The notes: generated from the letters alone by a model not told the origin. Shown: positions 3,853 to 23,236, counted from the first letter of the stretch. The stretch is DNA of 64,000 nt from Aeromicrobium sp. (GCA_015351705.1 JADIIM010000012.1:1-64000); one strand, 5' to 3'. Translations and numbers: made by a program.

Positions 3853-4344
3853 GTGAGCGATGTGCTCGCGCTCGATCTTAGTGCGCTGAAGTCCGCGGGC
3901 ATACGCGCGCTGTTACTCGACATCGACAACACGCTTCTGCCACGCGATACGTCGGTGTTCCCGCCCGAGTTCGTCGACTGGCTCGGCGGCCTTCCCGATG
4001 CGGGCCTGTCCGCGTACCTCGTCTCGAACAACTGGCACGACCACATATTCGACCGTGCCGCCGAGGTCGGCCTTCCCATCGTGGCCAAGGCGCTCAAGCC
4101 GCTTCCCTTCGGCTTCCTCCGGGCTGCGCGCGCGCTCGGGCTCCGCATGCGCCAGTGCGCGGTGGTGGGTGATCAGGTCTTCACGGACGTCCTCGGCGGG
4201 AATCTCGCGGGTGCGACCACGGTGCTCGTCGAGCCGCTATCCACCTCGGACCTTCCGCACACGCTTGTGCTCCGGCGGGTTGAACGGGTCATAATGGCGG
4301 GAAGACGGCCCGTCGCACGCGAGGCGGGAGCGGGGGAGGGCTGA
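3853..4344 (+). CDS. YqeG family HAD phosphatase (class IIIA)
   Basis: This protein of about 163 residues is a haloacid dehalogenase-fold phosphatase. Motif I is DIDNTL with the nucleophile Asp, motif II is the SNN segment, motif III Lys is in KALKP, and motif IV is VVGDQVFTD. YqeG proteins are small phosphatases often found near aroE and nadD-type genes. GTG 3853 is the first canonical start codon, but the family N-terminus (a L-x-PD-x-YV pattern) is encoded upstream as LLRPDHYV. The true start may therefore be CTG 3832, which has GGGAG 8 bases upstream. aroE begins 4 bases after the stop. Confidence 0.88.
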   Translation: MSDVLALDLSALKSAGIRALLLDIDNTLLPRDTSVFPPEFVDWLGGLPDAGLSAYLVSNNWHDHIFDRAAEVGLPIVAKALKPLPFGFLRAARALGLRMRQCAVVGDQVFTDVLGGNLAGATTVLVEPLSTSDLPHTLVLRRVERVIMAGRRPVAREAGAGEG

Positions 4345-4348
4345 GCGG

Positions 4349-5251
4349 GTGCGCATCGACGGGAACACACGACCCACAGCGGTGATCGGTTGGCCGGTCA
4401 CTCAGTCGCTGTCCCCGGTCATGCACAACGCCGCGTACGAGGCGCTCGGACTGAACTGGGCGTGCCTCCCGCTCGGCGTGCCGGACCAGAGGGCACTCCT
4501 CTCATTCGCCGAGACCGCCCGCCGGCTGTCGTTCGTGGGATTCAACGTCACCATGCCCTACAAGCAGGCCATGGCCGAGCTCTGCGACGAGGTCGCCACG
4601 CTCGCGCAGATGGCGGGCGCCGTGAACACCGTCCACTGCGTCGACGGCATGCTCGTGGGCTACAACACCGACGGACGCGGATTGCTCGAGGCGCTCGAGT
4701 CCGAGGCGGGATTCGACCCCGCGGGCGCATCGGTCGCCGTCATCGGGTCCGGGGGCGCCGCCGGAGCGGCGGTCACGGCGTTCATCCTCGCCAAGGCGCG
4801 TTCGTTGGCGCTGGTGAATCGTGACCCGGGACGTGCCGAGCAGCTTGCCGAGCGGGTCAGCGGCCGCCTTCACGGTATGGAGATGACCGTCCACGAACTC
4901 GGGCCGGCCGCCGCTGATGCGGTCCAGAGTGCCGACCTGGTGATAAACGCCACTCCGCTCGGCATGAGGCTCGACGATCCGAGCCCGGTCCCCGCCGGGT
5001 GGCTGCGCCCCGGTCAGGTCGTCTTCGACATGGTCTACCGGGTCGGTGACACCGCGCTCGTGCGTGAGGCGGCTGGCGCTGGTGCGCGGGCCTTCGGCGG
5101 GCTCGGCATGCTCGTCGCACAGGGGGCGCTCGCGATCGACATCTGGGCGGGCGACGAGCGTGGTCAGGCCACAGCACCGCGTGACGTCATGCGCTCTGCC
5201 GCCGAGGCCGCCATGCGCGAGAGAGCGGACGCCGAGGAGGCGCCGCGATGA
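4349..5251 (+). CDS. aroE: Shikimate dehydrogenase
   Basis: AroE reduces 3-dehydroshikimate to shikimate with NADPH in the aromatic amino-acid pathway. The 300-residue protein has the substrate-binding SLSP motif at 20-23, the catalytic Lys72 in NVTMPYK, the AVNTV and NTDGRG motifs (Asp108), the Rossmann GSGGAAGAA near 133-141 and the NATPLGM segment. GTG 4349 is the start, with GGGGGAGGG 8 bases upstream. The last bases overlap the first pilus ATPase gene as ATGA. The other aro genes lie on the far side of the pilus locus, starting at 23237. Confidence 0.95.
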   Translation: MRIDGNTRPTAVIGWPVTQSLSPVMHNAAYEALGLNWACLPLGVPDQRALLSFAETARRLSFVGFNVTMPYKQAMAELCDEVATLAQMAGAVNTVHCVDGMLVGYNTDGRGLLEALESEAGFDPAGASVAVIGSGGAAGAAVTAFILAKARSLALVNRDPGRAEQLAERVSGRLHGMEMTVHELGPAAADAVQSADLVINATPLGMRLDDPSPVPAGWLRPGQVVFDMVYRVGDTALVREAAGAGARAFGGLGMLVAQGALAIDIWAGDERGQATAPRDVMRSAAEAAMRERADAEEAPR

Positions 5252-6918
5252 CGGCCGCATCGGGCAAGCGGCTCGGACGGGTGCTCGTCCAGGCCGGCGT
5301 CGTCACGCAGGAGCAGCTCGACGAGGCCCTGTCCGGCGCTGCCGGGCGATCGATCACGAGCGTGCTGGTGGAGCAGGGTGTGGCCGACGAGACCGAGATC
5401 GCCCGCGCCGTCGCGGAGAACATGGGGCTTCCGTTCGTCGACCTCGGTGCCATCGAGATCGATCCCACGGCCGCGACGATGCTCTCGCTCGACCTCGCCA
5501 AACGGCACTCGTGTCTGCCCATCAAGATCCAGGACGACGAGCTGATCGTGGCGATGTCGGACCCGGCCAACATATTCGCGATCGACGATCTGCGCATCGT
5601 GACCGGCTTCGAGATACGCCCGGTGGTCGCCGCCGAGAGCGAGCTCGAGCAGGCCATCGAGCGCCTTGCGAGCATGCAGCAGAACGTCGACGAGATGGTC
5701 GGCGACATCGAGGACCTGAGTGCGGCCACCGAAGACGACTCGGCGACGGACGAAGAGGAAGAGGCGCCGGTCGCGCGCATCATGAACCACATCGTCACCG
5801 AGGCGATCCGCCAGGGCGCCGGCGACATCTACATCGAGCCCCAGGAGCATGATCTGCGCGTCCGGTACCGCATCGACGGCGTGTGTCAGGAGATCCTGCG
5901 CAGTCCCAAGAAGATCCATCGTCAGCTGATCAGCCGGCTCAAGATCCAGTGCGGCATGGATATCGCCGAGAAGCGCATCCCGCAGGACGGGCGTTTCGGC
6001 GTGGTGCTCGACGGCAAGTCCGTCGACTTCCGCGTGGCGGTCCTGCCCACGGTACAGGGCGAGATGTCCGTCATGCGTCTGCTGCGCAAGGACGCCATCA
6101 TGATGTCGCTCGAGGACCTCGGCTTCCTTGAGCAGCCGATGGAGCGCATCATGGAGGCCATCACCAAGCCGTACGGCGCGCTGCTCGTCACGGGACCGAC
6201 GGGATCGGGTAAGTCGACCACGCTGTACGCCGCGATCAACAAGACGACCAAGCCGACCGTGAACCTGATCACGGTCGAGGATCCCGTAGAGTACCGGCTC
6301 GAGGGCCTCTCGCAAGTGCAGGTGCACGAGAAGGCCGGGCTGACGTTCGCCGCAGCGCTGCGGTCCATCCTCCGTCAGGACCCGGACGTGGTGATGATCG
6401 GCGAGATCCGTGACAAGGAGACTGCCACGATCGCCATCGAGGCCGCGCTCACCGGGCACCTCGTCCTCTCGACGTTGCACACCAACGATGCGCCCTCGGC
6501 GCTCACCCGTCTGACCGAGATGGGCGTGGAGCCGTTCCTCTCGGCCTCGGCTATCAACTGCGTTCTGGCCCAGCGTCTCGCCCGGCGGCTGTGCAAGGAA
6601 TGCCGGGAAGAGTACACCCCCGATGAGGAGACGTTGCAGCGCATCGGGTTCCCGTACCAGCCGGGGTCGCCGCCGAGGCTGTACCGGGCAGTGGGCTGTA
6701 CGAAGTGCAACAACATCGGCTACAAGGGCCGCATGGGTGTGCACGAGGTCATGACGATGAGCGAGGACATCGAGCGGGCCTGCGTCAATCACGCGTCAGG
6801 TGACGAGATCGCGCGCATCGCCATCGCGCAGGGCATGAAGACGCTCAGGGACGACGGTTTTGAGAAGGTGAGGATGGGCCTCACATCCGTCGAGGAGATC
6901 ATGCGCGTCGTCGTCTGA
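5248..6918 (+). CDS. pilB: Type IV pilus assembly ATPase PilB/GspE-type (copy 1)
   Basis: This is the cytoplasmic hexameric motor that powers pilus extension. The 556-residue protein has an N-terminal MshEN-type domain (about 1-140, of the kind that binds c-di-GMP in some relatives), an acidic linker (150-172), then a secretion ATPase domain. Walker A GPTGSGKST is at 316-324, Walker B near 381-389 (VVMIGEIRD), a His box is at 404-412, and a tetracysteine zinc site uses Cys449, 452, 484 and 487. The zinc site and MshEN domain mark it as PilB/GspE rather than PilT. A paralogue of identical length lies at 11123. It starts inside the aroE stop. Confidence 0.93.
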   Translation: MTAASGKRLGRVLVQAGVVTQEQLDEALSGAAGRSITSVLVEQGVADETEIARAVAENMGLPFVDLGAIEIDPTAATMLSLDLAKRHSCLPIKIQDDELIVAMSDPANIFAIDDLRIVTGFEIRPVVAAESELEQAIERLASMQQNVDEMVGDIEDLSAATEDDSATDEEEEAPVARIMNHIVTEAIRQGAGDIYIEPQEHDLRVRYRIDGVCQEILRSPKKIHRQLISRLKIQCGMDIAEKRIPQDGRFGVVLDGKSVDFRVAVLPTVQGEMSVMRLLRKDAIMMSLEDLGFLEQPMERIMEAITKPYGALLVTGPTGSGKSTTLYAAINKTTKPTVNLITVEDPVEYRLEGLSQVQVHEKAGLTFAAALRSILRQDPDVVMIGEIRDKETATIAIEAALTGHLVLSTLHTNDAPSALTRLTEMGVEPFLSASAINCVLAQRLARRLCKECREEYTPDEETLQRIGFPYQPGSPPRLYRAVGCTKCNNIGYKGRMGVHEVMTMSEDIERACVNHASGDEIARIAIAQGMKTLRDDGFEKVRMGLTSVEEIMRVVV

Positions 6919-7063
6919 CGCGTCCTGCGACCTGCCGTTTCGCTGTTGTTTCGCCTACCGCGACGTGAGAGACTGGAGAGGCTGACCTCGACCGGGGTCG
7001 TCGACGCGCGCCGTCGATCAGGCAACCGGGCGAGTCGGGACACCCACGTGGAGGTGGAGGACC

Positions 7064-7693
7064 ATGGTGGACAAGGGCATCGGCGACTACTTCATCAGCG
7101 ACACCGACGACGAGTCGTTCGCCGATGACGACCTGCTCGTCCCGCCGGTCGTCGTTCCTGCGGTCGCCCAGCCCCAGGTCCCCGCTGCCCCGGCGGCGCC
7201 GGTCGCCGTTCCGGCTCCCACGGCGGCGGTCTCCGCGCCTGCAGCGCCTGTCCCCGGGGTGGCACCGGGCGCGTCTCCGCAGCCCGTAGCCGGACCTGTC
7301 CGGCCCCAGGCGACAGCTCGGCAGGCAAGCCGCGAGGAGATGCTCGCGGCCGCTCTCGACGAGCTCATGGGTGAGGACGCCGACATCCAGGCGGCTGCGC
7401 TCGTGAGCCTCGACGGCTTCACGATGGCGTCGGCACTCCCTGCCGGGATGCAGCCGGACCGCGTGGGTGCGATGTCCGCCGCGATCCTGGGTCTCGGCGA
7501 ACGGGCGGCCGCGGAACTCGGACGCGGCCATCTCTCGCAGGTCTTCATCGAGGGAGAGAACGGGTACGTCCTGCTCGTCGCCGCGGGGGAGCGCGCCGTT
7601 TTGACGGCGATGGCGGAGCCGGGCGCCAAGCTCGGCCTGGTGATATACGACATGAAGTCCATCGCGGAGCGTATCGGCCAGATCCTCGGCTGA
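7064..7693 (+). CDS. Roadblock/LC7 domain protein (MglB/CvnB-like)
   Basis: This 209-residue protein has an acidic N-terminus (1-25), a disordered Pro/Ala/Val-rich segment (26-88) and a C-terminal roadblock/LC7 domain (about 90-205). The domain shows the pattern DIQAAALVSLDGFTMAS, a central helix of small residues, a strand with GYVLLVAAG and a final amphipathic helix. In bacteria such proteins regulate Ras-like GTPases, as MglB does for MglA and CvnB for CvnD. A small GTPase is encoded two genes downstream. GGTGGAGGACC upstream supports ATG 7064. The long Pro-rich N-terminus is unusual for the family. Confidence 0.85.
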   Translation: MVDKGIGDYFISDTDDESFADDDLLVPPVVVPAVAQPQVPAAPAAPVAVPAPTAAVSAPAAPVPGVAPGASPQPVAGPVRPQATARQASREEMLAAALDELMGEDADIQAAALVSLDGFTMASALPAGMQPDRVGAMSAAILGLGERAAAELGRGHLSQVFIEGENGYVLLVAAGERAVLTAMAEPGAKLGLVIYDMKSIAERIGQILG

Positions 7694-7748
7694 GCGCGTC
7701 GCGTTAGAACGCAGGCGACGACACGCCGAGGAGTGACGGTCCGGACCC

Positions 7749-9596
7749 ATGGCACTGCGCGGCAACCTCAAAGACTTCAGCCTTCCCGACGTCTTCCAGC
7801 TCGTCCAGTTGAGCCGGAAGACGGGGGTGCTGCGCATCGTCGGCCAGGATGCCGAGGGGACGATCTGGTTTCGCGACGGCGAGGTATTCTTCGCGCAGTC
7901 CGACTGGCGGCGCGACCATCTCGGCGAGCGGCTCGTCGCTGCGCAGCGGATCACGCCCGCGGCGCTCGCCCGCGCCCTCGAGATCCGATCCGCTGAGCCT
8001 GCCGAGGGCCGGAGGCTCGGCCAGATCCTGGTCGACGAAGGCTACATCACGCACCAGGTGCTCGAGGCGTTCGTCCAGGAGCAGATCCAGGACACCATCT
8101 TCGACCTGATGCGCTGGGAGGAAGGCGACTTCGACTTCGAGGTCCTTCCCGACGTGGTCGACGAGGACATCGGCCTGTCGGTGTCGGTCGAGAACATCGT
8201 CATGGAGGGCAGCCGCCGCCTTGAGGAGTGGGGGAGGATCAAGAAGAAGGTCCCCTCTACCGACATGGTCTTCAAGATGGCCACCGCGCCGGGCGAGGGG
8301 ACGTTCGAGATCTCGCTCAAGCCCGCCGAGTGGAACCTGCTGCTGCTCGTCGACGGTACGCGCAGTGTGTCCGAGCTTGCGCACACCACGCGTCGCACCG
8401 ACTTCGAGGTCGCGCGCATCATCTACGGTCTGTTCTCGGCCGGGCTGCTCGAGGTGCCGTCCGACGACGAGGTCGAGCGCCTGCGCGCCGACCGCGTGAG
8501 GCGTGAGCAGCGTCGCGCTGCCGCGGGGACGCCCGCACCGGCAGAGGTACCCGCACAGGCCGAAGCACCCGCACAGGCAGAGTCGATCGAGGTGGCGCCG
8601 GTCACCCCGGCGGTCGACGAGACCCGGCCCGAATCGGGCACATCGGGCCCCGCCGAGGAGCCTGCGTTCCTGTCAGCCGCCGGCCATCAGCCCTCGGCGG
8701 ACGATATGGCCGTGTTCGAGCAGATGATGGGCGCCGTTCTCGGACCGCAGGCCGCAGAGGAAGCACCGGTCATCGCGCCCGAGGCACCCACGCCGCAGCC
8801 GGAGGCGTATCCGTCCGAGCTCGAAGGCGGGCCGTATGTCCCCGCCGCACCGCCGGTCGCCGATGAGGCATCGCTCGTGTCCGAGACGCTGCCGCCGGAC
8901 GGTGAGGTGGTGCAGCCGACCGCCGACGAGTTTGCAGTCGGTGCGCTCACCGAGGCCGAGATCGCGGACATACCGGCGCCGCCGGTCGCCGAGCAACTCG
9001 GCAGCGGGTTCGTTCCCACGGGCGACTTCGAGGCCGATCTGCGCACACTCGGCCTTGGCGAGCTGCCTCCGGAGCTGCGGGCACCCGCGGCCGAGGCGGA
9101 GATGCCATCAGAGGCAGATGCCGAGGACGACCTGGTGCCCGAGCCCGCTCAGGAGCCGGAGGAGTGGATCACCGGCGAGCCGCCTTCGGTCACCCGCGAG
9201 CCGATGTCGTCTGTGGACGAGACCGTCCCGGACGCGGTGCTGCCGTCCTCGGAGACCGCCGACCTCGAGGACCTCATCCGGTCGCTGGATACGCCAGGTC
9301 ACGAGGAACCCAGCGGTCGGATCGCCTCCGAGACCGACTTCGGTGAAGAATCGGCGGCAAGCCCGGGCGTGATCTCCACCGATGCGTATCTCGCCGATTT
9401 CGGCGGCGACATGGGCCTCACGGGCGGGCTCGGCGACGAGCTCACTGCGCTCACCGGCGGAGGGACCGGGCGTCAACGCCCCACGGCCACCGTCGCGAAG
9501 CTGCCTGAGCCCGGGCAGGCGCCGGTACTGCATCGCGATCAGATGGTGGACAAGAGCCTGATCGAGCAGATCATCAAGGGCATCGAGAGTCTGTGA
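7749..9596 (+). CDS. DUF4388 domain protein with long Pro/Glu-rich linker
   Basis: This 615-residue protein opens with a DUF4388 (PatA N-terminal-like) domain: ALRGNLKDFSLPDVFQLVQL, then TGVLRI and GTIWFRDGEVFFAQS. Helical and winged-helix-like segments follow to about residue 255. Residues 260-560 are low complexity, rich in Pro, Glu and Ala and probably disordered. The extreme C-terminus is again structured-looking (DKSLIEQIIKGIESL) and could be a docking helix. DUF4388 proteins often neighbour roadblock proteins and MglA-type GTPases. Here it lies between one of each, with 16 bases to the GTPase start. I infer an adaptor role; no enzymatic motif is visible. Confidence 0.85.
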   Translation: MALRGNLKDFSLPDVFQLVQLSRKTGVLRIVGQDAEGTIWFRDGEVFFAQSDWRRDHLGERLVAAQRITPAALARALEIRSAEPAEGRRLGQILVDEGYITHQVLEAFVQEQIQDTIFDLMRWEEGDFDFEVLPDVVDEDIGLSVSVENIVMEGSRRLEEWGRIKKKVPSTDMVFKMATAPGEGTFEISLKPAEWNLLLLVDGTRSVSELAHTTRRTDFEVARIIYGLFSAGLLEVPSDDEVERLRADRVRREQRRAAAGTPAPAEVPAQAEAPAQAESIEVAPVTPAVDETRPESGTSGPAEEPAFLSAAGHQPSADDMAVFEQMMGAVLGPQAAEEAPVIAPEAPTPQPEAYPSELEGGPYVPAAPPVADEASLVSETLPPDGEVVQPTADEFAVGALTEAEIADIPAPPVAEQLGSGFVPTGDFEADLRTLGLGELPPELRAPAAEAEMPSEADAEDDLVPEPAQEPEEWITGEPPSVTREPMSSVDETVPDAVLPSSETADLEDLIRSLDTPGHEEPSGRIASETDFGEESAASPGVISTDAYLADFGGDMGLTGGLGDELTALTGGGTGRQRPTATVAKLPEPGQAPVLHRDQMVDKSLIEQIIKGIESL

Positions 9597-9612
9597 CAAG
9601 AACGGAGCACGT

Positions 9613-10140
9613 ATGCAGTCGGTCAAGGTCGTGATCACCGGTCCGTTCAACGCCGGGAAGACCACGTTCATCAAAGCGGTCAGCGAGATCACCGTTCTGT
9701 CCACGGAACGCCAGATCAGCGACGCGTCCAACGAGGGCTCGGGCGAGACGACCGTCGCGATGGACTTCGGCCGCATCACCATCTCCGACGATGTGGTGCT
9801 GTACCTGTTCGGGACGCCGGGGCAGGAGCGGTTCTCGTTCATGTGGGAGACGCTGTCCGAGGGCATGCTCGGCTTCGTGCTCTTGGTCGATGCCGACGAT
9901 CAGGGCTCGTTTGACGACGCCAAGACCATGATCGAGTTCTTCCGCAGCATGTCCGATGTCCCGTTCGTCGTCGCTGCCAACAAGGTGGCACCCACCGACA
10001 TCGGCGCGCTGCGCGCTGTGCGCGCGGCGGTAGGGCTCGATGACGACATCCCGCTGCTGCCGGTCGATGCGCAGGACCGGGAGAGCGTGAAAGCGGTGCT
10101 GCTGGGGCTGCTCTATCGCATCCTCGACACCATGAGCTAG
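9613..10140 (+). CDS. Conservon-type (CvnD-like) small GTPase
   Basis: This 175-residue Ras-like GTPase has G1 GPFNAGKT at 10-17, threonines near 46-47 for switch I, G3 GTPGQE at 67-72, and AANK at 121-124 as G4, where the usual Asp of NKxD is replaced (NKVA). The segment TTVAMDFGRI and the stretch leading to LYLFGTPGQERF are typical of actinobacterial CvnD proteins and of MglA-related GTPases. It probably cycles between GDP and GTP forms under control of the roadblock protein at 7064. GGAGC before ATG 9613 supports the start. The altered G4 may weaken guanine specificity, as seen in CvnD relatives. Confidence 0.9.
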   Translation: MQSVKVVITGPFNAGKTTFIKAVSEITVLSTERQISDASNEGSGETTVAMDFGRITISDDVVLYLFGTPGQERFSFMWETLSEGMLGFVLLVDADDQGSFDDAKTMIEFFRSMSDVPFVVAANKVAPTDIGALRAVRAAVGLDDDIPLLPVDAQDRESVKAVLLGLLYRILDTMS

Positions 10141-10143
10141 CAA

Positions 10144-11022
10144 GTGGATACCCGGCTCTACATCACTGCGGGGATCGGTGTCATCGTCAGCCTGTGCGTG
10201 CTGTACGTCATCTCCGCCTACGCTCGCTACCGGGCAGCGCTCAGACGCTCACGGCACGCCTCCCTGTCGGCCGATGAGGACGTCCCTGGCGCGTATCTCG
10301 GCGCTGATGCCGAGGGCGTCGATGACGTCTTCGCCGTTCGCGAGACGGTTCCTGAGCCCGTGCCCGCGGTGCCTGTCGCGCCGGTTCCGCTCGATGGCGC
10401 CATCGAGGTGCCAATCGAGCCGGACTCACAGGGGACTGCGACCGTGCAGCCTACCGCGATTCCCGTGTCAGCCCTGCGGATCCCGCTCGTGCACCCGCCC
10501 GGCGCCGTCGGGTCGGAGCCGTCGGCTCCCGCGGTCCCGAGCCTCGAGCCCGAGCCCGAGCCCGTGCCTGAGCCCGAGCCCGTGCCTGAGCCCGAGCCCG
10601 AGCCCGAGCCCGTGCCTGAGCCCGAGCCCGAGTCCGCGCCCGAGCCCGCACCCGCCGCGGCACCGGTGCCTGGTCCCGCATCCACGGTGACGGTCGCCCC
10701 GCTCGACGCCGTGCCCGACCCTCATGCGTTCACACCACTGGCTCCGGCGCCCTCGCTCGGGGAGGTCCTGTCGAGCGCCGTGCCGGTCGCCGCGCCCGCC
10801 GTCGGACCGGTCGGGAACACCTCTGTCGCACATCCCGATCCGGTCGATACGCCGGCAGGTGAGGCCGAGCCTCACGAGTACGCGCTTGTCGCTCCGGTCG
10901 AGCTGCACTTCACGCGTGGCGAGGGCCGGGTCGGTGTCAGGGCAGGCACACGAACCTACGGGGAGTTCCAGCGGCTCGCCTCGATCCTGCTCGACGATCT
11001 ACGTAAGGCCCGTGGCTGGTAG
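10144..11022 (+). CDS. Single-pass membrane protein with Pro-Glu repeats
   Basis: This 292-residue protein has an N-terminal membrane helix (about 6-25), a basic stop-transfer stretch with RYRAALRRSRH, and a long central region dominated by PEPEPVPEPEP repeats (about residues 137-170) that is probably extended. The C-terminal 50 residues look folded, with VELHFTRGEGRVGVRAG and a final helix ending LLDDLRKARGW. The basic residues after the helix suggest that the bulk is cytoplasmic. It starts at GTG 10144, 3 bases after the GTPase stop, so it probably acts with that GTPase, perhaps as a membrane tether. I do not recognise a named family. Confidence 0.72.
   Translation: MDTRLYITAGIGVIVSLCVLYVISAYARYRAALRRSRHASLSADEDVPGAYLGADAEGVDDVFAVRETVPEPVPAVPVAPVPLDGAIEVPIEPDSQGTATVQPTAIPVSALRIPLVHPPGAVGSEPSAPAVPSLEPEPEPVPEPEPVPEPEPEPEPVPEPEPESAPEPAPAAAPVPGPASTVTVAPLDAVPDPHAFTPLAPAPSLGEVLSSAVPVAAPAVGPVGNTSVAHPDPVDTPAGEAEPHEYALVAPVELHFTRGEGRVGVRAGTRTYGEFQRLASILLDDLRKARGW
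10545..10650 (+). repeat. Short tandem repeat encoding Pro-Glu/Pro-Val
   Basis: An imperfect array of the hexamer CCCGAG, with interspersed CCCGTGCCT units, encodes PEPEPV-type repeats inside the membrane protein at 10144. The 18-base combination of two CCCGAG units and CCCGTG recurs. Such arrays are prone to slippage in whole units, so length could vary between strains. Confidence 0.85.
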
Positions 11023-11041
11023 TCTGAGTCGGCCGGGGCAC

Positions 11042-11072
11042 TTGCCGTGACCGTGGTCACGTGTCGTACTAT
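11042..11072 (+). promoter_or_regulatory. Promoter with inverted repeat upstream of second pilB
   Basis: A TACTAT -10 element lies at 11067-11072, with a TTGCCG at 11042-11047 as a possible, widely spaced -35. Between them is an inverted repeat with 7-base arms, CGTGACC-GT-GGTCACG at 11046-11061. A repeat in the spacer is a typical repressor operator position. The downstream gene starts at GTG 11123. Confidence 0.5.
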
Positions 11073-11122
11073 CGTGAGGGCGGGCCAGCCGGGCACGCCG
11101 TAGCCGATGGAGTGATGCCTTC

Positions 11123-12793
11123 GTGGCTGAAGCGGGTCAGCGTCTCGGCGTGCTCCTCATGCGCGCCGGCATCATAACCGAGCGGCAACTCACCGACGCT
11201 CTCGAGGTCCACAAGGCCACGGGAAGCCCGCTCGGACGCGTCCTGGTGGACCTCGGCTATGCCACTCAGGGCGCCATCCTGTCGGTGATGGCGAAACAGA
11301 TCGGCATCCCGTACATCGACTTCTCCACCACGCGACCTGACGCGAACGCTGTTGCCGCGGTGCCCCGCGATCTTGCAGTGCGCTACACGCTGATGCCCGT
11401 CGAGGTCGACGATGGCCAGCTCGTCGTGGCCATGGCCGACCCTCAGAACGTGCTGGCGCTCGATGACCTGCGGATCATAACCGGCTACGAGATCAAGCCC
11501 GCGATCTCCACGCGCGACGACATCGCGGCGGCGGTCGATGAGTACTACAAGGTGGCGTCCACCGTCTCCGATGACGAGCTGGACGCCGGTGAGGATCTTG
11601 ACGTCGTCTCCCTCGAGGACCTGACCGAGGTCACCGATGAGGCGCCGATCGTCAAACTCGTGAACTACATCATCAACAAGGCGGTCACCGACCGCTCGAG
11701 CGACATTCACATCGAACCGCAGGAGAAGGACCTCCGTGTCCGGTACCGCATCGACGGCGTGCTCCACGAGATGATGCGAAGCCCCAAGAGCACGCAACAG
11801 GCGATCATCAGCCGATTCAAGATCATGGCCGAGATGGACATCGCCGAGACCCGCAAACCGCAAGACGGTCACACCGCGCTCACCATCGGCGGCCACAAGA
11901 TGGACTTCCGTGTGTCCACGCTGCCGACGGTCTACGGCGAGCGGGTCGTCCTGCGTATCCTGCGCAAGGACAACATCATGCTCCGGCTCGAGGACCTCGG
12001 CTTCCTGTCGTCGTCTCTTGAGCGCTTCGAGTCGTCGTTCCGCAAGCCCTATGGAGCCATCCTCGTCACCGGCCCCACGGGCTCGGGGAAGTCGACCTCA
12101 CTGTATGCGGCCATCAACGTCTTGAACGAGCCCGGTAAGCACATCCTCACCGCCGAAGACCCGGTGGAGTACCGGCTGCCCGGTGTGAACCAGGTCCAGA
12201 CCAATGTGCGGGCGGGACTCACCTTCGCAAAGGCGCTCCGCTCGTTCCTGCGATGTTCGCCTGACATCATCCTGGTCGGCGAGATCCGCGATCAGGAGAC
12301 GGCCCAGATCGCCGTCGAGTCGGCCCTCACCGGTCACCTCGTGCTCTCCACGCTGCACACCAACGATGCGGCTGGTGCTATCACGCGTCTGACCGAGATG
12401 GGCGTGGAGCCGTTCCTCGTGGCCTCCTCGGTGGACTGCGTGCTCGCTCAGCGTCTCGCGCGGCGGCTGTGCAAGGACTGCAAGGAGGAGTTCAAGCCCT
12501 CTCGGCAGATGCTGCTCGACGCCGGCTACGCCGAAGACGCGCTGCCCGATCGCCTGTGGCGTGCCAAAGGATGCAAGAAGTGCGGCGGTACCGGCTACCG
12601 TGGCCGTCTCGGCGTTCACGAGGTCATGCTGGTCTCGGAGGAGATCGGCGACCTCACGGTCAAGGAGGCCACTGCCGAGGCGATCCGCGAGGTGGCGGTC
12701 GAGCAGGGGATGCTCACGCTCAAGCAGGACGGTCTCGAGAAGTGCCGGTCCGGTCAGACGTCTGTCGAGGAGATCGCGCGCGTCATCGTGTGA
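11123..12793 (+). CDS. pilB: Type IV pilus assembly ATPase PilB (copy 2)
   Basis: This second 556-residue extension-type motor has the same architecture as the one at 5248: an MshEN-type N-terminal domain (1-145), a short acidic linker, and a secretion ATPase domain with Walker A GPTGSGKST at 317-325, Walker B near 383-390 (ILVGEIRD), a His box (HLVLSTLHTND) and zinc cysteines 450, 453, 484 and 487. It sits directly upstream of pilC and the pilins, so it is the likelier principal PilB. GTG 11123 follows GGAG by about 10 bases. The absence of a PilT-type gene between the two PilB genes is notable. Confidence 0.93.
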   Translation: MAEAGQRLGVLLMRAGIITERQLTDALEVHKATGSPLGRVLVDLGYATQGAILSVMAKQIGIPYIDFSTTRPDANAVAAVPRDLAVRYTLMPVEVDDGQLVVAMADPQNVLALDDLRIITGYEIKPAISTRDDIAAAVDEYYKVASTVSDDELDAGEDLDVVSLEDLTEVTDEAPIVKLVNYIINKAVTDRSSDIHIEPQEKDLRVRYRIDGVLHEMMRSPKSTQQAIISRFKIMAEMDIAETRKPQDGHTALTIGGHKMDFRVSTLPTVYGERVVLRILRKDNIMLRLEDLGFLSSSLERFESSFRKPYGAILVTGPTGSGKSTSLYAAINVLNEPGKHILTAEDPVEYRLPGVNQVQTNVRAGLTFAKALRSFLRCSPDIILVGEIRDQETAQIAVESALTGHLVLSTLHTNDAAGAITRLTEMGVEPFLVASSVDCVLAQRLARRLCKDCKEEFKPSRQMLLDAGYAEDALPDRLWRAKGCKKCGGTGYRGRLGVHEVMLVSEEIGDLTVKEATAEAIREVAVEQGMLTLKQDGLEKCRSGQTSVEEIARVIV

Positions 12794-12839
12794 GCGGCCA
12801 TACTCCCGCTCATGCGCGCCGCCGTTCGTGCCGAATGTG

Positions 12840-12858
12840 TACTATGTCCCCGGGGACA
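12840..12858 (+). promoter_or_regulatory. -10 element with overlapping palindrome upstream of pilC
   Basis: A TACTAT -10 element at 12840-12845 runs directly into a perfect 14-base palindrome, TGTCCCCGGGGACA at 12845-12858, placed over the expected transcription start. pilC begins at 12883. The layout suits an operator, but no regulator gene is identifiable nearby. Confidence 0.45.
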
Positions 12859-12882
12859 CCATCCGTCTGAGAGGTACGCGCT

Positions 12883-14097
12883 ATGGCGACGACCACCTTC
12901 AAGTACAACGTCCGCGATAAGACCGGCAAGGTCGTGAGTGGCAGGCTCGAGGGCGAGAACCGCGATGCCGTCGCAACCAAGCTGCGCCAGATGGGCTACA
13001 TCATCCTGGATCTGGACGAAGACCGGCTTGCCAAACTGAACAAGATCCAGTTCGGCACGACCATCAAGACCAAGGACGTGACCATCTTCGCCCGGCAGTT
13101 CGCCACGATGATCAACGCCGGCCTCTCGCTCACGAAGTGCCTCAGCATCCTCGGTGCGCAGTCGGAGAGCAAGGAGCTGCGCGAGGTCATCTCGCAGCTG
13201 GGTCGCGACGTCGAAGCCGGACAGTCCCTCTCAGAAGCGATGGTCAAGCACCCCAAGGTCTTCCCGCCGATTTTCTACAACATGGTCCGGGCGGGTGAGA
13301 CCGGTGGTGTCCTCGACGAGGTGCTGCTCCGGGTCGCCGACCTGTTCGAAGCGGATGCCGCGCTGAAGGCCCGCATCAAGTCGGCCATGACCTACCCGGT
13401 GGCGATGGGCGGACTTGTTCTCATCGTCCTGGTCGCAATGATGGTGTTTGTCGTCCCCACGTTCCAGAAGATGTTCTCCGACATGGGCGGGGAGTTGCCG
13501 CTTCCAACGCAGATACTTGTGGCGATCTCCGAGGGCGCTCGCGGACTACCAGGTGTCGTGACCGTCGTCGCGGTCGTAGTTGCGGTGGTGGTCTTCAAGT
13601 GGTGGATCGGTACCGAGTCAGGCCGCTTCATCTGGGACGGCGCGAAGTTACGGATGCCGGTCATCGGTAGTCTGGTTCGCAGGACTGCGCTAGCTCGATT
13701 CACCCGCACATTCGGCACGCTCGTGGCCGCTGGCGTGCCGATACTGTCGGCATTGGATATCGTCTCTGAGACAGCAGGGAATGAAGTAGTGTCCCGTGCT
13801 GTCAAGAAGGTGCGCTCGGCGATCAAGGAGGGGGAGACGATTGCCAAGCCGCTTGGAGAGTCTCCCATCTTTCCGTCGATGGTCGTGCAGATGATCGCCG
13901 TGGGCGAGGAGACGGGCGCACTGGACCAGATGCTCAACAAGATCGCTGACTTCTATGATGAAGAGGTGCGCGTTGCGGTTGACAGTCTGACGTCGATCAT
14001 CGAGCCGATCATGATGGCTTCGCTTGGAGTGATAGTCGGCGGGATCATCATTGCCCTGTACATGCCGATGTTCCAGATCATCACCCTGGTCAACTAG
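12883..14097 (+). CDS. pilC: Type IV pilus inner-membrane platform protein PilC
   Basis: PilC is the polytopic membrane platform on which PilB acts. The 404-residue protein has two T2SSF domains, about 65-190 and 265-395. Each begins with an FARQF-ATMINAG-L or FTRTFGTLVAAGVP type segment and contains an ETGG/ETGA motif (139-142 and in the second half). Membrane helices are visible near 171-192, 222-241 and at the C-terminus (about 375-400). Length and domain duplication are normal for the family. GAGAGG lies upstream of ATG 12883. Confidence 0.95.
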   Translation: MATTTFKYNVRDKTGKVVSGRLEGENRDAVATKLRQMGYIILDLDEDRLAKLNKIQFGTTIKTKDVTIFARQFATMINAGLSLTKCLSILGAQSESKELREVISQLGRDVEAGQSLSEAMVKHPKVFPPIFYNMVRAGETGGVLDEVLLRVADLFEADAALKARIKSAMTYPVAMGGLVLIVLVAMMVFVVPTFQKMFSDMGGELPLPTQILVAISEGARGLPGVVTVVAVVVAVVVFKWWIGTESGRFIWDGAKLRMPVIGSLVRRTALARFTRTFGTLVAAGVPILSALDIVSETAGNEVVSRAVKKVRSAIKEGETIAKPLGESPIFPSMVVQMIAVGEETGALDQMLNKIADFYDEEVRVAVDSLTSIIEPIMMASLGVIVGGIIIALYMPMFQIITLVN

Positions 14098-14099
14098 CA

Positions 14100-14128
14100 T
14101 TGGCGCGCGTGGAAATTCCCGCTAAAGT
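14100..14128 (+). promoter_or_regulatory. Probable pilin promoter
   Basis: TTGGCG at 14100-14105 and TAAAGT at 14123-14128 are separated by exactly 17 bases. This is the best-spaced -35/-10 pair in the pilus locus and fits strong, separate transcription of the major pilin starting at 14205. Confidence 0.55.
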
Positions 14129-14204
14129 GTTGCGCGCCGTGACCGATGATAGTGAGTAGGTGGGCGGTTGCCCATTGTCCGCGAGAGGAAAGGTGGTGAA
14201 CATC

Positions 14205-14540
14205 ATGCGGATGTTCAAGAAGGAGGAGGGTTTCACCCTCGTCGAGCTCATGGTTGTCGTTCTCATTATCGGAATTCTTGTTGCGATTGCGATTCCTGTC
14301 TTCAACGCCGCGCGTGACAACGCCCAGCTCAGGGCGTGCCACGCGAACCAGCGCACCGTCGAGGGCGCCGTACAGCAGTGGCGTGCTGCGAACGTCGGTG
14401 GCACCGTTGGTGCCGACTGGGCTGCTCTGATGGGACAGCTCGTTTCTGACTACGTCCAGGTCATCCCGGTGTGTCCAGCAGGTGGGACCTACAGCTGGAA
14501 CGGAACGGTCGTAGCCTGCACGGAGCACGCACACTACTAG
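14205..14540 (+). CDS. Type IV pilin (first of two tandem copies)
   Basis: This 111-residue type IVa-like prepilin has a 9-residue basic leader ending in Gly, then FTLVE with the assembly Glu at +5 (Glu14) and a hydrophobic helix to about residue 34. The small C-terminal domain holds three cysteines, with a CPAGGTYSWNG segment near the end. ATG 14205 is chosen because AAGGTGGTGA just upstream matches the anti-Shine-Dalgarno closely; earlier in-frame GTG codons would lengthen the leader. The N-terminal codons are richer in A/T than the genome average, which often goes with high expression. Confidence 0.93.
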   Translation: MRMFKKEEGFTLVELMVVVLIIGILVAIAIPVFNAARDNAQLRACHANQRTVEGAVQQWRAANVGGTVGADWAALMGQLVSDYVQVIPVCPAGGTYSWNGTVVACTEHAHY

Positions 14541-14585
14541 GGTGTCCGACTGACAGCGGCTACCCGTCACGATTGGTGCTCGTGT

Positions 14586-14629
14586 AGCACGACGATCGGG
14601 GATCGGCTGGGCCGGTCCCCGATCGTGCT
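14586..14629 (+). terminator. Hairpin between the two pilin genes
   Basis: Arms AGCACGACGATCGGGGA (14586-14602) and TCCCCGATCGTGCT (14616-14629) pair with a three-base bulge, and the stem extends inward through GATCGG/CCGGTC. No U-tract follows, as is common in GC-rich genomes. It may partially terminate transcription or protect the first pilin message from 3' decay. Confidence 0.6.
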
Positions 14630-14682
14630 ATTCGAACGGGAGACGGTTCGCTGCGGTCGCTGCAGGCGAGGTGAGTGACGTG

Positions 14683-15021
14683 ATGGTGACCAGGGATGAT
14701 CGCGGATTCACTCTTGTTGAGTTGATGGTTGTCGTGCTCGTGGTTGGAATCCTCGTCGCTGTTGCGATTCCTGTGTTCAACTCGGGCCGGGCCTTGGCCG
14801 AGCAACGCGCATGCTTCGCGACTCAACGCACGGTCGAGGGGGCGGTTCAGCAGTACCTCGCCAATGGGATCGCCAACACCGCACCCGTGGATCTTGCGAG
14901 CCTTTGGTTAGCACTCGCACCCGCGTATGTCGGCACGATACCCGATTGTCCTACAGGTGGCGCATACTCATGGAACGGTGAGACGCTGCGCTGCGCGATT
15001 CACGGCAGCTATAAGGACTGA
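14683..15021 (+). CDS. Type IV pilin (second tandem copy)
   Basis: This 112-residue prepilin closely resembles the preceding one. It has an 8-residue leader ending in Gly, FTLVELMVVVL with Glu at +5, the shared QRTVEGAVQQ segment and a C-terminal CPTGGAYSWNG block. ATG 14683 is preferred over GTG 14671 because GAGGTGA lies 8 bases before it and the resulting leader has normal length. The acidic/basic leader MVTRDDRG is weaker than that of the first copy. It may be a second major pilin or an initiating minor subunit. Confidence 0.9.
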   Translation: MVTRDDRGFTLVELMVVVLVVGILVAVAIPVFNSGRALAEQRACFATQRTVEGAVQQYLANGIANTAPVDLASLWLALAPAYVGTIPDCPTGGAYSWNGETLRCAIHGSYKD

Positions 15022-15156
15022 GTGCGCGGTCAGGCTGAGGTCGGGGATCGGCATGTGCTGGTCTCCGGCTTCGGCGTTCTGGCGAATTGGGCCCGTGCTC
15101 ACCTCGCTCACAACCCGTGATTGCAGTCTCCGTCGACCGACCAAGGGGAGGCATGG

Positions 15157-15987
15157 TTGGACGCTGATGCAGCGATGTGTGTGATGCTCACGTGCCTGGG
15201 GCTCCTGTTCGGCTCGTTCGCCAATGTGGTCATCTGGCGCGTGCCCCGAGGGGAGTCGATCGTCAGTCCCGGCTCGCACTGTCCCTCGTGCCAGGCCCCG
15301 ATCCACTGGTACGACAACGTCCCCGTCCTGTCCTGGCTCCTTCTCCGCGGCAGGTGCAGAGCGTGCGGTTCGACCATCCCCGTCAGGTACCCCTTGGTGG
15401 AAGCCGCATCTGCGGGAGTGTTCATCCTCGCCGCCGTGCGCTTTGGTGCTACCGCCCAAGCGGTGTTCGCGGCACTGGTCTTCTGGCTTCTTCTCGTGCT
15501 GTCGGCCATCGATCTCGATCACTACCGGCTACCCAATCCACTGGTGCTCGCCCTCGGCGTGATCGCCGCTGTGGCAGTCGTTGTCACCCAGGCCACCGGT
15601 ATGCCGCTAGCGCCGCTGACGGCCGAGGAGGGCTCGTGGCTCGCCAGGGCACCCGCGTTTGCAGCGTTGATAGGACTCGCGGTGGGCGGTGGCGTGCCGG
15701 CGGCGCTCGCCGGCATCTACCGGCTGGTCCGCGGGAAACAGGGGCTCGGGATGGGGGACATCAAGCTGCTCGGCGTTCTGGGCCTCGTTCTTGGCCCGCA
15801 TGTGGTCATGACGCTTCTGTTCGGTAGCGTGATCGGGATGTGCGTTGCTTTGACCGCCGCGCGCAGTACCCGGTTGGCGGATCGGCGGATCCCGTTCGGA
15901 CCGTCGCTCTCTGCGGGGGCGGTGATCACCGCGGTTGCCGGTCCAGCCATCTGGGAATGGTATCTGCGGATCGCGGGCCTGGTGTGA
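15157..15987 (+). CDS. pilD: Prepilin peptidase/N-methyltransferase (A24 family)
   Basis: This membrane aspartic protease removes prepilin leaders and methylates the new N-terminus. The 276-residue protein has the A24 N-terminal domain (GSFANVVIWRVPRG) with two cysteine pairs, CPSC and CRAC, that form a zinc site. About seven membrane helices and both catalytic aspartate motifs follow: SAIDLDHYRLPN and the GMGD motif in GLGMGDIKLL. TTG 15157 is chosen because AAGGGGAGG ends 5 bases upstream. An in-frame TTG at 15121 has no ribosome binding site. Confidence 0.93.
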   Translation: MDADAAMCVMLTCLGLLFGSFANVVIWRVPRGESIVSPGSHCPSCQAPIHWYDNVPVLSWLLLRGRCRACGSTIPVRYPLVEAASAGVFILAAVRFGATAQAVFAALVFWLLLVLSAIDLDHYRLPNPLVLALGVIAAVAVVVTQATGMPLAPLTAEEGSWLARAPAFAALIGLAVGGGVPAALAGIYRLVRGKQGLGMGDIKLLGVLGLVLGPHVVMTLLFGSVIGMCVALTAARSTRLADRRIPFGPSLSAGAVITAVAGPAIWEWYLRIAGLV

Positions 15988-15992
15988 CCGGA

Positions 15993-16001
15993 TGTTAAGA
16001 T
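15993..16001 (+). promoter_or_regulatory. Extended -10 promoter for the minor pilin genes
   Basis: TGTTAAGAT forms an extended -10 (TGn followed by TAAGAT) just after the prepilin peptidase gene and about 110 bases before the first minor pilin start. No convincing -35 is visible, which is usual for extended -10 promoters. Confidence 0.45.
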
Positions 16002-16111
16002 GCGGTTGAGCGCCCTGCGGGACGTCAAGTCGCCGCACGTTCGTGCCGATACCCATACCAGCGGCGCGGGCCGTAACGGTCGACCGTGCCTGTATCGAGG
16101 CGGTGAGAGTA

Positions 16112-17680
16112 GTGGGACGCAAGCGGATAGGGGCACAGCTGCTGTCGCGAGATGACGGCATGACGCTTGTCGAGATCATGGTCGCGGCCGTGATCATGTT
16201 CATCATCCTCACGGGTGTTCTGACCCTGGTGACGAACACCACGATGATGTCACTCCAGTCCAAGCAGAAGAACGTGATGACCAATGCGCTGAATGCGTAC
16301 ATTGAATGGGCGCAATCGCTTCCGTTCGAGGACGTCGCGCTCGTGACCGATGATGGTGCCCTCCAGGAGCAGACCACCATTGTCGGTGGCTACACAGTGG
16401 TCATCACCCCCACTGTCACCCCGGTCAGCGGGAACAGCGCACTCAAGACGCTGCGTGTTGACATCACCGTGACCGATGGGCAAGGTCGCGTGTTGGACCA
16501 CTCCACCAGCGTTGCGGTGCGCGACCGCAGCCAGTTCCTCACCCAGGGAAAGCGTGATCCGGAGACTGACCCTGTCGTCCGGTTCGGCAGCCTTGCGCCA
16601 CCAAGCGGTGCGGTGGTCTGGGACTCGCAGTGGGCCGGCGGCCCCATCTATCTCGACGTGCAGGCCGAGGCGGCCGAGGGCCGGGTGATCGAGGTCGTGC
16701 GGGTGTCGTTCAACTCACTGTTGTGCGAGGACGCGAGTCTCCCGCCTCGCTCGGCCCTCTGGGAACCCAGGACCGAGACGTTCTCGTCCACAAGCGATCT
16801 CTTCATATGGAACACACACCAGTCCGAACCGATCGAGGTCGAAGAGGGCGTGTTCGTTGACACCCGGCTGTTCGGTGACGGTGTTGGGACCCTCAAGGCA
16901 TGGGTTGTCGATGACGCGGGTATAGACAATGCTGCGGAGATATTCCTCGTGCTCGACAACTTCCCGCCTGCTGCACCCGGCGGTATCGCTCCAGGTAGCC
17001 CCAAAGGGTACACGGTGTCGGTTCAGTGGGCGAAGGCCATGGACGGCAATCTGGACGCCGACTCGTACACACTCGAGTGGGTGCGGCAGGGGATGCCGCA
17101 CACAGCGGCCACGGGTTCTCCATTCGGGTACTGGGATACTGGGGGGGCGCATGCTGAGGCCAACGCGGCGAACCACCCGGATTCGACGCTGACTCATGAG
17201 ATCGCCACGCAGCCCTTCAGCCGGTATGCGGCGCGCGTTCGCGCCGTGTCGCCGCGAGGATTCACCTCGGATTGGGTCGACACCATCTTCGAGTCGCGTC
17301 CGCTTCTGAGCGGTACGTACCAGGTCGAGAAGAAGACAACGGGTGGTCCGAGCACGAGGTACTGGAAGGTCACCTCCACGCTTTCGGTCACACCACCTGC
17401 GTTCCCGACGTCTGCCGGGGCCACCTACTCGTTCTACCGGATCACCGGGGGGACGGAGACGCTCATCCAACAGGGTGCTGCGACGACGTGCACCGACGCA
17501 GTGACGGTCACCGGGAATCCCGACTCCACGAACTTCCCGGTCCGCGGTTACCGGGTCGACGTCACATACACGCCGCTCGGCATTGGCGGCGGCACTTCCA
17601 CACAATCATCTTCGAACACCGTCACCACGGTCTATCAGGCGAATGCGGGAACGTATACGTTCACCGAGGGGACGTGGTGA
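16112..17680 (+). CDS. Large PilV/GspI-like minor pilin with fibronectin III-like region
   Basis: This 522-residue prepilin-like protein has a 16-residue leader ending RDDG, then MTLVEIMVAAVIMF with Glu at +5 (Glu21). The rest is exported. After about 190 residues of unassigned sequence, the region near 285-385 resembles a fibronectin type III domain: it runs from APGGIAPGSPKGYTVSVQW, through YTLEW, to YAARVRAVSPRGFTSDW. The C-terminal part is Thr/Ser-rich. GTG 16112 is chosen because AGGCGGTGA lies 5 bases upstream. Most minor pilins are under 250 residues, so this one probably carries an adhesive or tip domain. Confidence 0.85.
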   Translation: MGRKRIGAQLLSRDDGMTLVEIMVAAVIMFIILTGVLTLVTNTTMMSLQSKQKNVMTNALNAYIEWAQSLPFEDVALVTDDGALQEQTTIVGGYTVVITPTVTPVSGNSALKTLRVDITVTDGQGRVLDHSTSVAVRDRSQFLTQGKRDPETDPVVRFGSLAPPSGAVVWDSQWAGGPIYLDVQAEAAEGRVIEVVRVSFNSLLCEDASLPPRSALWEPRTETFSSTSDLFIWNTHQSEPIEVEEGVFVDTRLFGDGVGTLKAWVVDDAGIDNAAEIFLVLDNFPPAAPGGIAPGSPKGYTVSVQWAKAMDGNLDADSYTLEWVRQGMPHTAATGSPFGYWDTGGAHAEANAANHPDSTLTHEIATQPFSRYAARVRAVSPRGFTSDWVDTIFESRPLLSGTYQVEKKTTGGPSTRYWKVTSTLSVTPPAFPTSAGATYSFYRITGGTETLIQQGAATTCTDAVTVTGNPDSTNFPVRGYRVDVTYTPLGIGGGTSTQSSSNTVTTVYQANAGTYTFTEGTW

Positions 17681-18237
17681 GCATGGGCTCCACGCGCCGC
17701 GACTCGGGGTTCACGCTTGCCGAGTTGACTGTGGTCATGGGTCTTCTCGGCATGATTCTCGCCATTGCCTACACGGGCTTCAGTGTTGCCGCGAACGGCA
17801 GCCGCATGAGCGACCGGCAGGCTCACCTCAGCCGCGAGATCGGTGCGCCGATGTCGGTGATCGACCGAGCGCTCACCCAAGCGTTCGATTTCGACACGAG
17901 CTACCCCGGGCTGAGCCCGAACCGACTGGCGTTCTACACGGACCAGAACACCAATGGATATCGGGAGCGCTACGTCATGGAGGTCTCCGGTACTCGTCTT
18001 CTGATCAGCACCGAGGAGGAGGGCCACCAGCCGTTGAGGCAGGTCGTCTGGTCCGAGCATAACGCCAACCTTAGTGCCGGCGTGCCGCTCTTCCGCTACT
18101 ACAATGTGAACGGTGACGAGATCACGTCGATGGGGAGCGTCCCTGGCGACGTCAAGCGCGTCGTGGTCACCCTCGTCACCGTTCACGACGGTGATCAACT
18201 GACGGATTCCCGCACGGTGTTCCTGCGGAATCGCTAG
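17677..18237 (+). CDS. PilW/GspJ-like minor pilin
   Basis: This 186-residue prepilin-like protein has an 11-residue leader ending in SG, then FTLAELTVVMGLLGM with Glu at +5. Its soluble domain contains a segment of the GspJ/PilW kind (RLAFYTDQNTNGYRERYV). GTG 17677 overlaps the preceding stop as GTGA with GAGGGGA upstream; ATG 17683 is an alternative that shortens the leader by two residues. It lies between a PilV-like and a PilX-like gene, the usual order of tip-complex pseudopilins. Confidence 0.85.
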   Translation: MSMGSTRRDSGFTLAELTVVMGLLGMILAIAYTGFSVAANGSRMSDRQAHLSREIGAPMSVIDRALTQAFDFDTSYPGLSPNRLAFYTDQNTNGYRERYVMEVSGTRLLISTEEEGHQPLRQVVWSEHNANLSAGVPLFRYYNVNGDEITSMGSVPGDVKRVVVTLVTVHDGDQLTDSRTVFLRNR

Positions 18238-18256
18238 ACCGATGGAGGAGAGAACG

Positions 18257-19870: not shown

Positions 19871-19900
19871 CGGATCGAGGGTTGTGAATCTGGCGCACTA

Positions 19901-19935
19901 TTGACAAGGAGGGCTCATCTGCGGTTCGATGAGCC
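19901..19935 (+). promoter_or_regulatory. -35-like element with perfect inverted repeat upstream of pilM
   Basis: A consensus TTGACA is at 19901-19906, followed by an 8-base perfect inverted repeat, GGCTCATC (19912-19919) and GATGAGCC (19928-19935), with an 8-base loop. A weak -10-like TTCGAT lies at 19925-19930. The repeat could be an operator over the promoter or a hairpin ending the minor pilin transcript; no U-tract follows it. Confidence 0.4.
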
Positions 19936-19997
19936 GTGTCGGAGTCGCGTGAGCCTGCGCGAGTATCTCTCCGCAGCGTACTTTGCAGGGGAACCGC

Positions 19998-20037
19998 CGT
20001 AGCAGTAGCACCAGTCGCAGTCTTGTCGTAGCAGTAG
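19998..20037 (+). repeat. 11-base direct repeat in the pilM leader
   Basis: CGTAGCAGTAG occurs at 19998-20008 and again at 20027-20037, 29 bases apart start to start. The second copy abuts the pilM ribosome binding site AAGGAGG. It could be a regulator or RNA-binding site, or chance. Confidence 0.7.
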
Positions 20038-20050
20038 AAGGAGGACTCCG

Positions 20051-21172: not shown

Positions 21173-21762
21173 TGATGCGCGTGAACCTGCTGCCCCCGGA
21201 GATACTGGAACGTCGCAAGTCAGAGCAGCGCGTCGTCTGGGTGTTGCTCGCAGCCGTGTTCGTCGGGGTGGTTCTCGCAGGAGTTTGGGGCTTCGCCAGT
21301 TATCGGGCGGGGGTCAAGCAGGATGAGCTGGCCCAGCTTCAGCAGCTGGTCCAGTCAACGCAGGCACAGGCAGACCAACTGGCGATCTTCGAAGAGCGCG
21401 CGGTCGAGCTCGAGGCTCGCAAGGCAGTTGCGGATGCCGCGCTGGGCGATCGTCGCAACTGGGGCAAGCTCTACGATGAGGTGTCCCTGGTGCTACCTGC
21501 GGATGTGTGGATCCAGACCATGGTCACGAACGAGGTAGACGGTCTGGCGATCGACGGATACGCGCTGGACTCGGTGACCGACACCCCGGACGGGGGGCAC
21601 AAGCCGATCGCCAAGACACTCGTCCGTCTCTCAGACCTCAACGACCTGTACGATGTCTGGCTGACGAACTCGGCCAAGACCGAGTATCTTGAGCAGCCGG
21701 CTATCCAGTTCAGTCTGACCGCGGGTGTCGTGTCTCCCGCTGAGGGCGAGGTGGCGCCGTGA
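21172..21762 (+). CDS. pilN: Type IV pilus assembly protein PilN
   Basis: This 196-residue bitopic protein begins with MMRVNLLPPEILERR, the family's conserved cytoplasmic INLLP-type motif that binds PilM. A membrane helix (about 23-43) and a periplasm-facing coiled coil and small domain follow. It overlaps the pilM stop (TGATG); GTG 21169 is an equally possible start one codon earlier. The ribosome binding site GGGAGGG is at 21157-21163. Confidence 0.9.
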   Translation: MMRVNLLPPEILERRKSEQRVVWVLLAAVFVGVVLAGVWGFASYRAGVKQDELAQLQQLVQSTQAQADQLAIFEERAVELEARKAVADAALGDRRNWGKLYDEVSLVLPADVWIQTMVTNEVDGLAIDGYALDSVTDTPDGGHKPIAKTLVRLSDLNDLYDVWLTNSAKTEYLEQPAIQFSLTAGVVSPAEGEVAP

Positions 21763-21847
21763 CGGCCCACCTGACATTCAACGATCATCCGCGGTGGGCG
21801 GGCCTGCCCCGCCACGTACGCCCGGCCTACTGCGGAGGGTGCTAGCC

Positions 21848-22474: not shown

Positions 22475-22507
22475 TGACGGCCGGAGCAGGCGAGGGAGGC
22501 GAAGACC

Positions 22508-23119: not shown

Positions 23120-23140
23120 CGCATCAGTGCGTGTCTCCCT

Positions 23141-23164
23141 CGGGCGCCGTTCATGCGGCGCCCG
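23141..23164 (+). terminator. Terminator at the end of the pilus operon
   Basis: Perfect 9-base arms CGGGCGCCG and CGGCGCCCG flank a TTCATG loop, 21 bases after the PilP-like stop. There is no U-tract, but the stem is very stable and sits between two convincing transcription units. Confidence 0.72.
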
Positions 23165-23200
23165 ATGCGTCTCCGGGGAAGCGTGGGTCGGCAGGTGCGG

Positions 23201-23206: not shown

Positions 23207-23236
23207 CCCGGCATGAGCCGGTGAACGGAGGGCGTG

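Follow-up and report, generated by a model that had tools for sequence, protein, structure and literature searches.

A putative GTP-operated regulator encoded within the type IV pilus operons of Actinomycetota

In Myxococcus xanthus, the Ras-like GTPase MglA, whose partner is the roadblock protein MglB, recruits SgmX, which brings the pilus extension motor PilB to the pole (PMC11580455). In Synechocystis, PATAN regulators interact with PilB1 and PilC (PMC12288463; also PMC7690835 and PMC9090330). PATAN genes are also found near MglA groups 1 and 5 and MglB homologues (Wuichet and Sogaard-Andersen 2014, PMC4316618; also Makarova et al. 2006, as cited in PMC4316618). And in the conservons (Cvn or AGPS) of Streptomyces and Mycobacterium, a roadblock protein, a winged-helix adaptor (CvnC, or DUF742), and a GTPase (CvnD) are encoded in that order, along with the sensor kinase CvnA. 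Here we describe a gene string with parts of each of these systems. It lies in a 64,000-nucleotide stretch (the window) from Aeromicrobium sp. (GCA_015351705.1, JADIIM010000012.1:1-64000), whose genome, a Coriobacteriia-like MAG, is a draft of 2.07 Mb in 60 contigs. We think it fairly probable that the string encodes a GTP-operated regulator of the type IV pilus that is built into the pilus operon. The string and the next pil gene are:

4349..5251, + strand: aroE (shikimate dehydrogenase), the first gene of the string; its stop overlaps the PilB1 start, and its position is kept in relatives
5248..6918, + strand: PilB1, a motor ATPase (T2SSE, E 4.8e-138; MshEN)
7064..7693, + strand: roadblock/LC7 protein (Robl_LC7, E 4.8e-16)
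7749..9596, + strand: DUF4388 (PATAN) adaptor (PF14332, E 2.4e-34)
9613..10140, + strand: Ras-like GTPase of 175 amino acids (Ras, E 2.1e-8; ATP_bind_1, E 1.8e-17)
10144..11022, + strand: Pro/Glu-rich membrane (anchor) protein, with no real family match
11123..12793, + strand: PilB2, a motor ATPase (MshEN and T2SSE; T2SSE E 4.3e-138)
12883..14097, + strand: PilC platform protein (Pfam/NCBIfam)

A preliminary description of this DNA, made from the sequence alone, named PilB, roadblock, DUF4388, GTPase, Pro/Glu membrane protein, and a second PilB, and all six genes are there. The span that it described ends at 11022 with the membrane protein gene, and PilB2 lies just beyond. Profile matches in the string also bear out its statement that the kinase and DUF742 parts of a conservon are absent and that a DUF4388 protein takes their place. 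Pilins, PilD, and PilM/N/O-like genes follow PilC, which gives the gene content of a type IVa pilus operon. (PilB, PilC, and the pilins were assigned by Pfam/NCBIfam; PilD and the PilM/N/O-like genes were assigned by reading the open reading frames, and PilD was also recognized by similarity in relatives.) PilT, often present between PilB2 and PilC in relatives, is missing from the window's operon. A scan of 4000-24000 against Rfam gave no match.

Among 248 genomes of the class, 53 have a match to the GTPase (E <= 1e-8), and all 53 belong to the window's own order. The gene order in these relatives is aroE, PilB1, roadblock, DUF4388, GTPase, membrane protein, PilB2, (PilT), PilC, pilin, PilD, and it is kept in every neighborhood that we fetched, up to the limits of the contigs. 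Because this order recurs in every GTPase-bearing relative as far as the contigs reach, a chance arrangement is excluded, and the six-gene string is real, in this place and order on the + strand. Members of the order without a GTPase match are mostly cases where a contig ends inside the string. Where the contig was long enough, none of the 248 genomes had a module without pil genes. In one genome (G131), about 14 bp separate PilB1 from PilB2, and the roadblock, DUF4388, GTPase, and anchor genes are all missing; we found no roadblock, DUF4388, or GTPase matches elsewhere in this draft. The module was lost as one block, which fits a unit of four genes.

GTPase matches were found in 106 of 396 genomes of the phylum. 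The loci that we read are of two kinds: DUF4388-type loci at pilB/pilC, or conservons, recognized by DUF742, a CvnA-like kinase, or both. Of 45 DUF4388-type loci in other actinobacterial families, about 42 are at pilB/pilC and one more is in a Che/PilB-like cluster. The triad of roadblock, DUF4388, and GTPase genes is found at pilB/pilT/pilC in many families, and the local order varies. In family f38 (L136, L138, and L145), the DUF4388 protein has 1000-1300 residues and its gene is preceded by three consecutive roadblock genes; aroE lies between the GTPase and PilB.

The DUF4388 protein has these features:

7758-8231, + strand: PATAN domain
7920-8084, + strand: MshE-like cyclic di-GMP (c-di-GMP) motif inside the PATAN domain (NCBIfam NF053729, 43.7 versus a cut-off of 38)
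about 8316-8456, + strand: winged helix
9540..9593, + strand: putative C-terminal docking helix, ending MVDKSLIEQIIKGIESL-COOH

A linker of about 340 mostly disordered residues separates the winged helix from the C-terminal helix. In the predicted model, the first 250 residues mostly have a pLDDT above 90, the linker is mostly below 60, and the C-terminal helix is at 79-89. A fold search of this model against the PDB gave no match at E<=0.001, with weak matches to winged helices alone.

The docking-like helix, which the preliminary description had pointed out in the window, proved to be conserved and tied to the GTPase neighborhood. GTPase-adjacent DUF4388 proteins have a short amphipathic helix at their extreme C-terminus, after linkers of <100 to about 1,000 residues, and it is kept beside GTPases in every phylum that we sampled. 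A strict pattern for the helix matches 62 of 80 actinobacterial GTPase-adjacent DUF4388 proteins (an unfiltered set; by eye, all but one of the rest are near-matches), 28/31 of those from outside Actinomycetota, and 40/51 DUF742 proteins. The background is 8 of 2756 other long open reading frames. None of 19 stand-alone DUF4388 paralogues from the order has the helix; nor does the window genome's own paralogue, which stops directly after the winged helix. The helix goes with the GTPase rather than with the pil genes, which makes the GTPase its likeliest partner. This predicted docking would fit the interaction of CvnD9 with CvnC9 that Komatsu et al. reported alongside one with CvnB9 (as cited in PMC8510531). 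We rejected PilB as the main partner, as the helix is kept in proteins of Chloroflexota and Aquificota without nearby pil genes. The roadblock protein is disfavored, as the helix is kept where the locus shows no roadblock (L080, L171, and L180). A second DUF4388 protein, without the docking helix, is encoded in a chemosensory cluster on G000 contig 45 (L308:2636-14101), together with CheR-TPR, a receiver, a PilB-like MshEN/T2SSE ATPase, two CheW, MCP, CheA, and CheB. This cluster is a possible second route to pilus control.

The window's GTPase has the P-loop GPFNAGKT, Thr46-Thr47, GTPGQ in G3 (with the catalytic Gln71), and NKVAPTD in G4. GTPGQ, with Thr replacing the arginine finger of G2, is the pattern of MglA groups 2-5, unlike group 1, which has TVPGQ and an intrinsic arginine finger. 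(The definition of groups 2-5, and that of CvnD used below, are from PMC4316618.) The Chloroflexota GTPases that we read (L219, L222, L229, and L231) have GKTE in the P-loop, versus GKTT in Actinomycetota.

As in the MglA family, the GTPase gene is coupled to a roadblock gene with an Asp-Gly pair. The roadblock protein has a conserved N-terminal GIGDYFIS peptide, an Ala/Pro linker, and a roadblock domain (7352-7609). This is the sole roadblock gene that we found in the window genome. The nearest solved relative of the protein is 7f8m (E 4e-23), versus E >0.2 for MglB. Gln71 is kept in 75/75 pil-linked GTPases whose locus has an intact roadblock. It is lost in five GTPases: G059, G109, G397, the second copy of G527, and G022. 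The first four have no roadblock at the locus, G059 and G109 have none that we could find in the whole genome, and the roadblock of G022 is strongly diverged. Some of these GTPases also lack P-loop or switch residues. Counted on loci, the association is strong (Fisher p 4e-8). This is good but limited evidence that the roadblock protein works through GTP hydrolysis, and it supports the proposal in the preliminary description of a nucleotide-driven switch.

Given the MglA-SgmX-PilB and PATAN-PilB1 precedents, the simplest model would run from the GTPase through the PATAN adaptor to PilB. The Ras-like switch probably controls the timing or the place of pilus motor activity. The GTPase would be the switch, and the roadblock protein would control its GTP hydrolysis and reset it, as MglB does for MglA, in the manner of a GTPase-activating protein. 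The winged helix and the extreme C-terminal helix of the DUF4388 protein would bind the GTPase at the end of the long flexible linker, while the PATAN domain, perhaps tuned by c-di-GMP, would act on PilB by bringing it to the pilus base or licensing it there. We infer the direction of this effect, as well as any polarity. The window genome has 14 GGDEF matches. (On G000 contig 10, L309:2334-14949, a PilT gene has a GGDEF protein and a complete Che cluster as neighbors.) The short membrane protein might tether the switch near the pilus machine. It has an N-terminal transmembrane helix, a Pro/Glu linker of variable length, and a conserved C-terminal segment (10882-11013) that ends in a helix; its predicted model shows the transmembrane helix, disorder, and the C-terminal helix, with no fold for comparison.

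The proposed regulator resembles MglA/MglB in having an MglA-family GTPase with a roadblock partner and in its proposed link to the extension motor via an effector. SgmX is a TPR protein, whereas the adaptor here is a PATAN protein, and the module is inside the pil operon. It also resembles the PATAN-linked neighborhoods of MglA groups 1 and 5, where an MglA-family GTPase and an MglB homologue are beside a PATAN protein. But those are described as occasional, while the linkage here is order-wide, is inside a pil operon, and includes a shared docking-like helix. With the cyanobacterial PATAN-CheY regulators (PixG, PixE, and LsiR), which are linked to PilB1 and PilC, it shares the PATAN domain; there the domain is fused to a receiver domain, and here a winged helix and the GTPase-linked helix at the C-terminus accompany it.

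Several observations weigh against a dedicated pilus regulator. First, the tie to pil loci, which holds within Actinomycetota, fails beyond it: all 27 Chloroflexota DUF4388-GTPase loci are away from pil genes, and in some Aquificota loci DUF4388 and GTPase genes are adjacent, in both cases without PilB within up to 9 kb on each side. By the refuting condition that the preliminary description set (a module mostly away from pil loci), the idea stands within the phylum and not outside it. The pair is therefore a general switch, which may have been captured by the operon for non-motor reasons. Second, the module is absent from G001 and G017, two genomes of a different order in the class, which both have PilBs in tandem. 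Together with G131, these show that the pilus can exist without the module, as expected of a regulator. Third, the pattern of Gln71 and roadblock reduces to three changes on the gene tree (pairwise sign test, p 0.25), which is too few for significance after correction for descent.

The first of these points also fits a generic signaling triad that only shares a transcript with the pil genes and has its target in another part of the cell. Loci in Thermus are away from pil genes as well, and a metabolic gene, aroE, rides in the same operon. However, the linkage to pilB/pilC persists in many actinobacterial families despite their varied local order, the module was not seen without pil genes in the class, and cyanobacteria have a known link between PATAN proteins and PilB1. 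We therefore consider a generic triad unlikely. One of the Thermus loci, on a plasmid of T. thermophilus (L185:7369-9498), encodes DUF4388, GTPase, roadblock, and protoglobin proteins in one string, which suggests a gas-sensing version.

Alternatively, the GTP state might select between PilB1 and PilB2 as the pilus motor. The module has a motor on either side in the window's order and in families f83, f84, and f91, so the placement "between two PilB motors" in the preliminary description holds for these groups; the other families that we examined have one PilB beside the module. The two motors also differ. PilB1 keeps its Walker A motif (GPTGSGKST), GEIRD, and two CxxC pairs, but its second MshEN motif is degenerate (5248-5500 region; 26 aligned sequences), while both motifs are intact in PilB2 (11123-11360 region; 34 aligned sequences). 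PilB2 scores 56.6 bits for the c-di-GMP motif of NF053729, and PilB1 scores 35.7 bits, just below the cut-off of 38. Yet most other actinobacterial families have a single PilB at the module, and tandem PilBs occur without it. A choice between motors is improbable, to about the same degree as a generic triad.

The remaining comparison for the proposed pilus regulator is with conservons. The window's triad shares with them the roadblock protein, the winged-helix adaptor with the same C-terminal helix, the GTPase, and the gene order. It has no CvnA sensor kinase beside it (nor does a CvnA query match any type IV pilus locus), and the gene upstream of the GTPase encodes DUF4388 instead of DUF742, adding the PATAN domain and the long linker. 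In two trees, the conservon GTPases form one clade (support 100/100). The window's GTPase lies outside this clade, among pil-linked sequences, and lacks the NxFD of CvnD in G4. This rules out membership in the conservons and corrects the "CvnD-like" label that the GTPase had been given; the triad is of the PATAN-linked kind near MglA groups 1/5. That it is a conservon minus its kinase, with a PATAN protein replacing CvnC between CvnB and CvnD and signaling to transcription, is very unlikely: the order is the same and DUF742 aligns with the C-terminal half of the DUF4388 protein (see below), but the GTPase clades are separate, neither PilB nor DUF4388 is near any of the 65 conservon loci, and the PATAN form is present in several phyla, which makes it likelier to predate conservons than to be a reduced version of one.

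From these comparisons, the triad is not a conservon but is conservon-related. Pil-linked GTPases were monophyletic in 0% of 200 bootstrap trees, which suggests that the conservons are nested in or descended from them, although an approximately unbiased test did not reject monophyly (p 0.263). In a profile comparison, DUF742 matched the C-terminal half of the actinobacterial DUF4388 proteins with a probability of 95% (E 2.3e-8), using a pre-filtered set with the linker cut out. The comparison to uncut DUF4388 proteins from Chloroflexota, which is fairer, gave 82% (E 1e-5), and a control with the roadblock profile gave 0.1%. The alignment covers the winged helix and the extreme C-terminal helix. 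Since winged helices are generally alike, the shared C-terminal helix and the gene position carry much of the case. We tentatively propose, with somewhat less than even confidence, that conservons descend from a PATAN-type switch: CvnC would be the C-terminal half of a DUF4388 protein after loss of the PATAN domain, and the triad would have exchanged its connection to a machine of the cell surface for one to a sensor kinase. If so, CvnC would serve as a GTPase-binding adaptor, instead of being a DNA-binding protein or before it became one.

A conservon survey from 2026 was confined to loci syntenic with CvnA and mentions neither DUF4388 nor Coriobacteriia in its text (PMC13343842). In the open-licence literature, we recognized no description of a GTPase/roadblock/DUF4388 module that is embedded in the pil operons of a whole order of Actinomycetota, and we found no report of a relation between DUF742 and DUF4388.

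If our interpretation is correct, then myxobacteria and Bdellovibrio are not alone in placing type IV pili under Ras-like control, which would be standard in several deep actinobacterial groups, with all of the parts in one operon. It would also offer a cheap test of the role of CvnC in the conservons of Streptomyces and mycobacteria: are its last 15 residues a GTPase-binding helix? The module is part of the pil cluster of many little-known actinobacteria, and it appears to be related to a Streptomyces signaling system.

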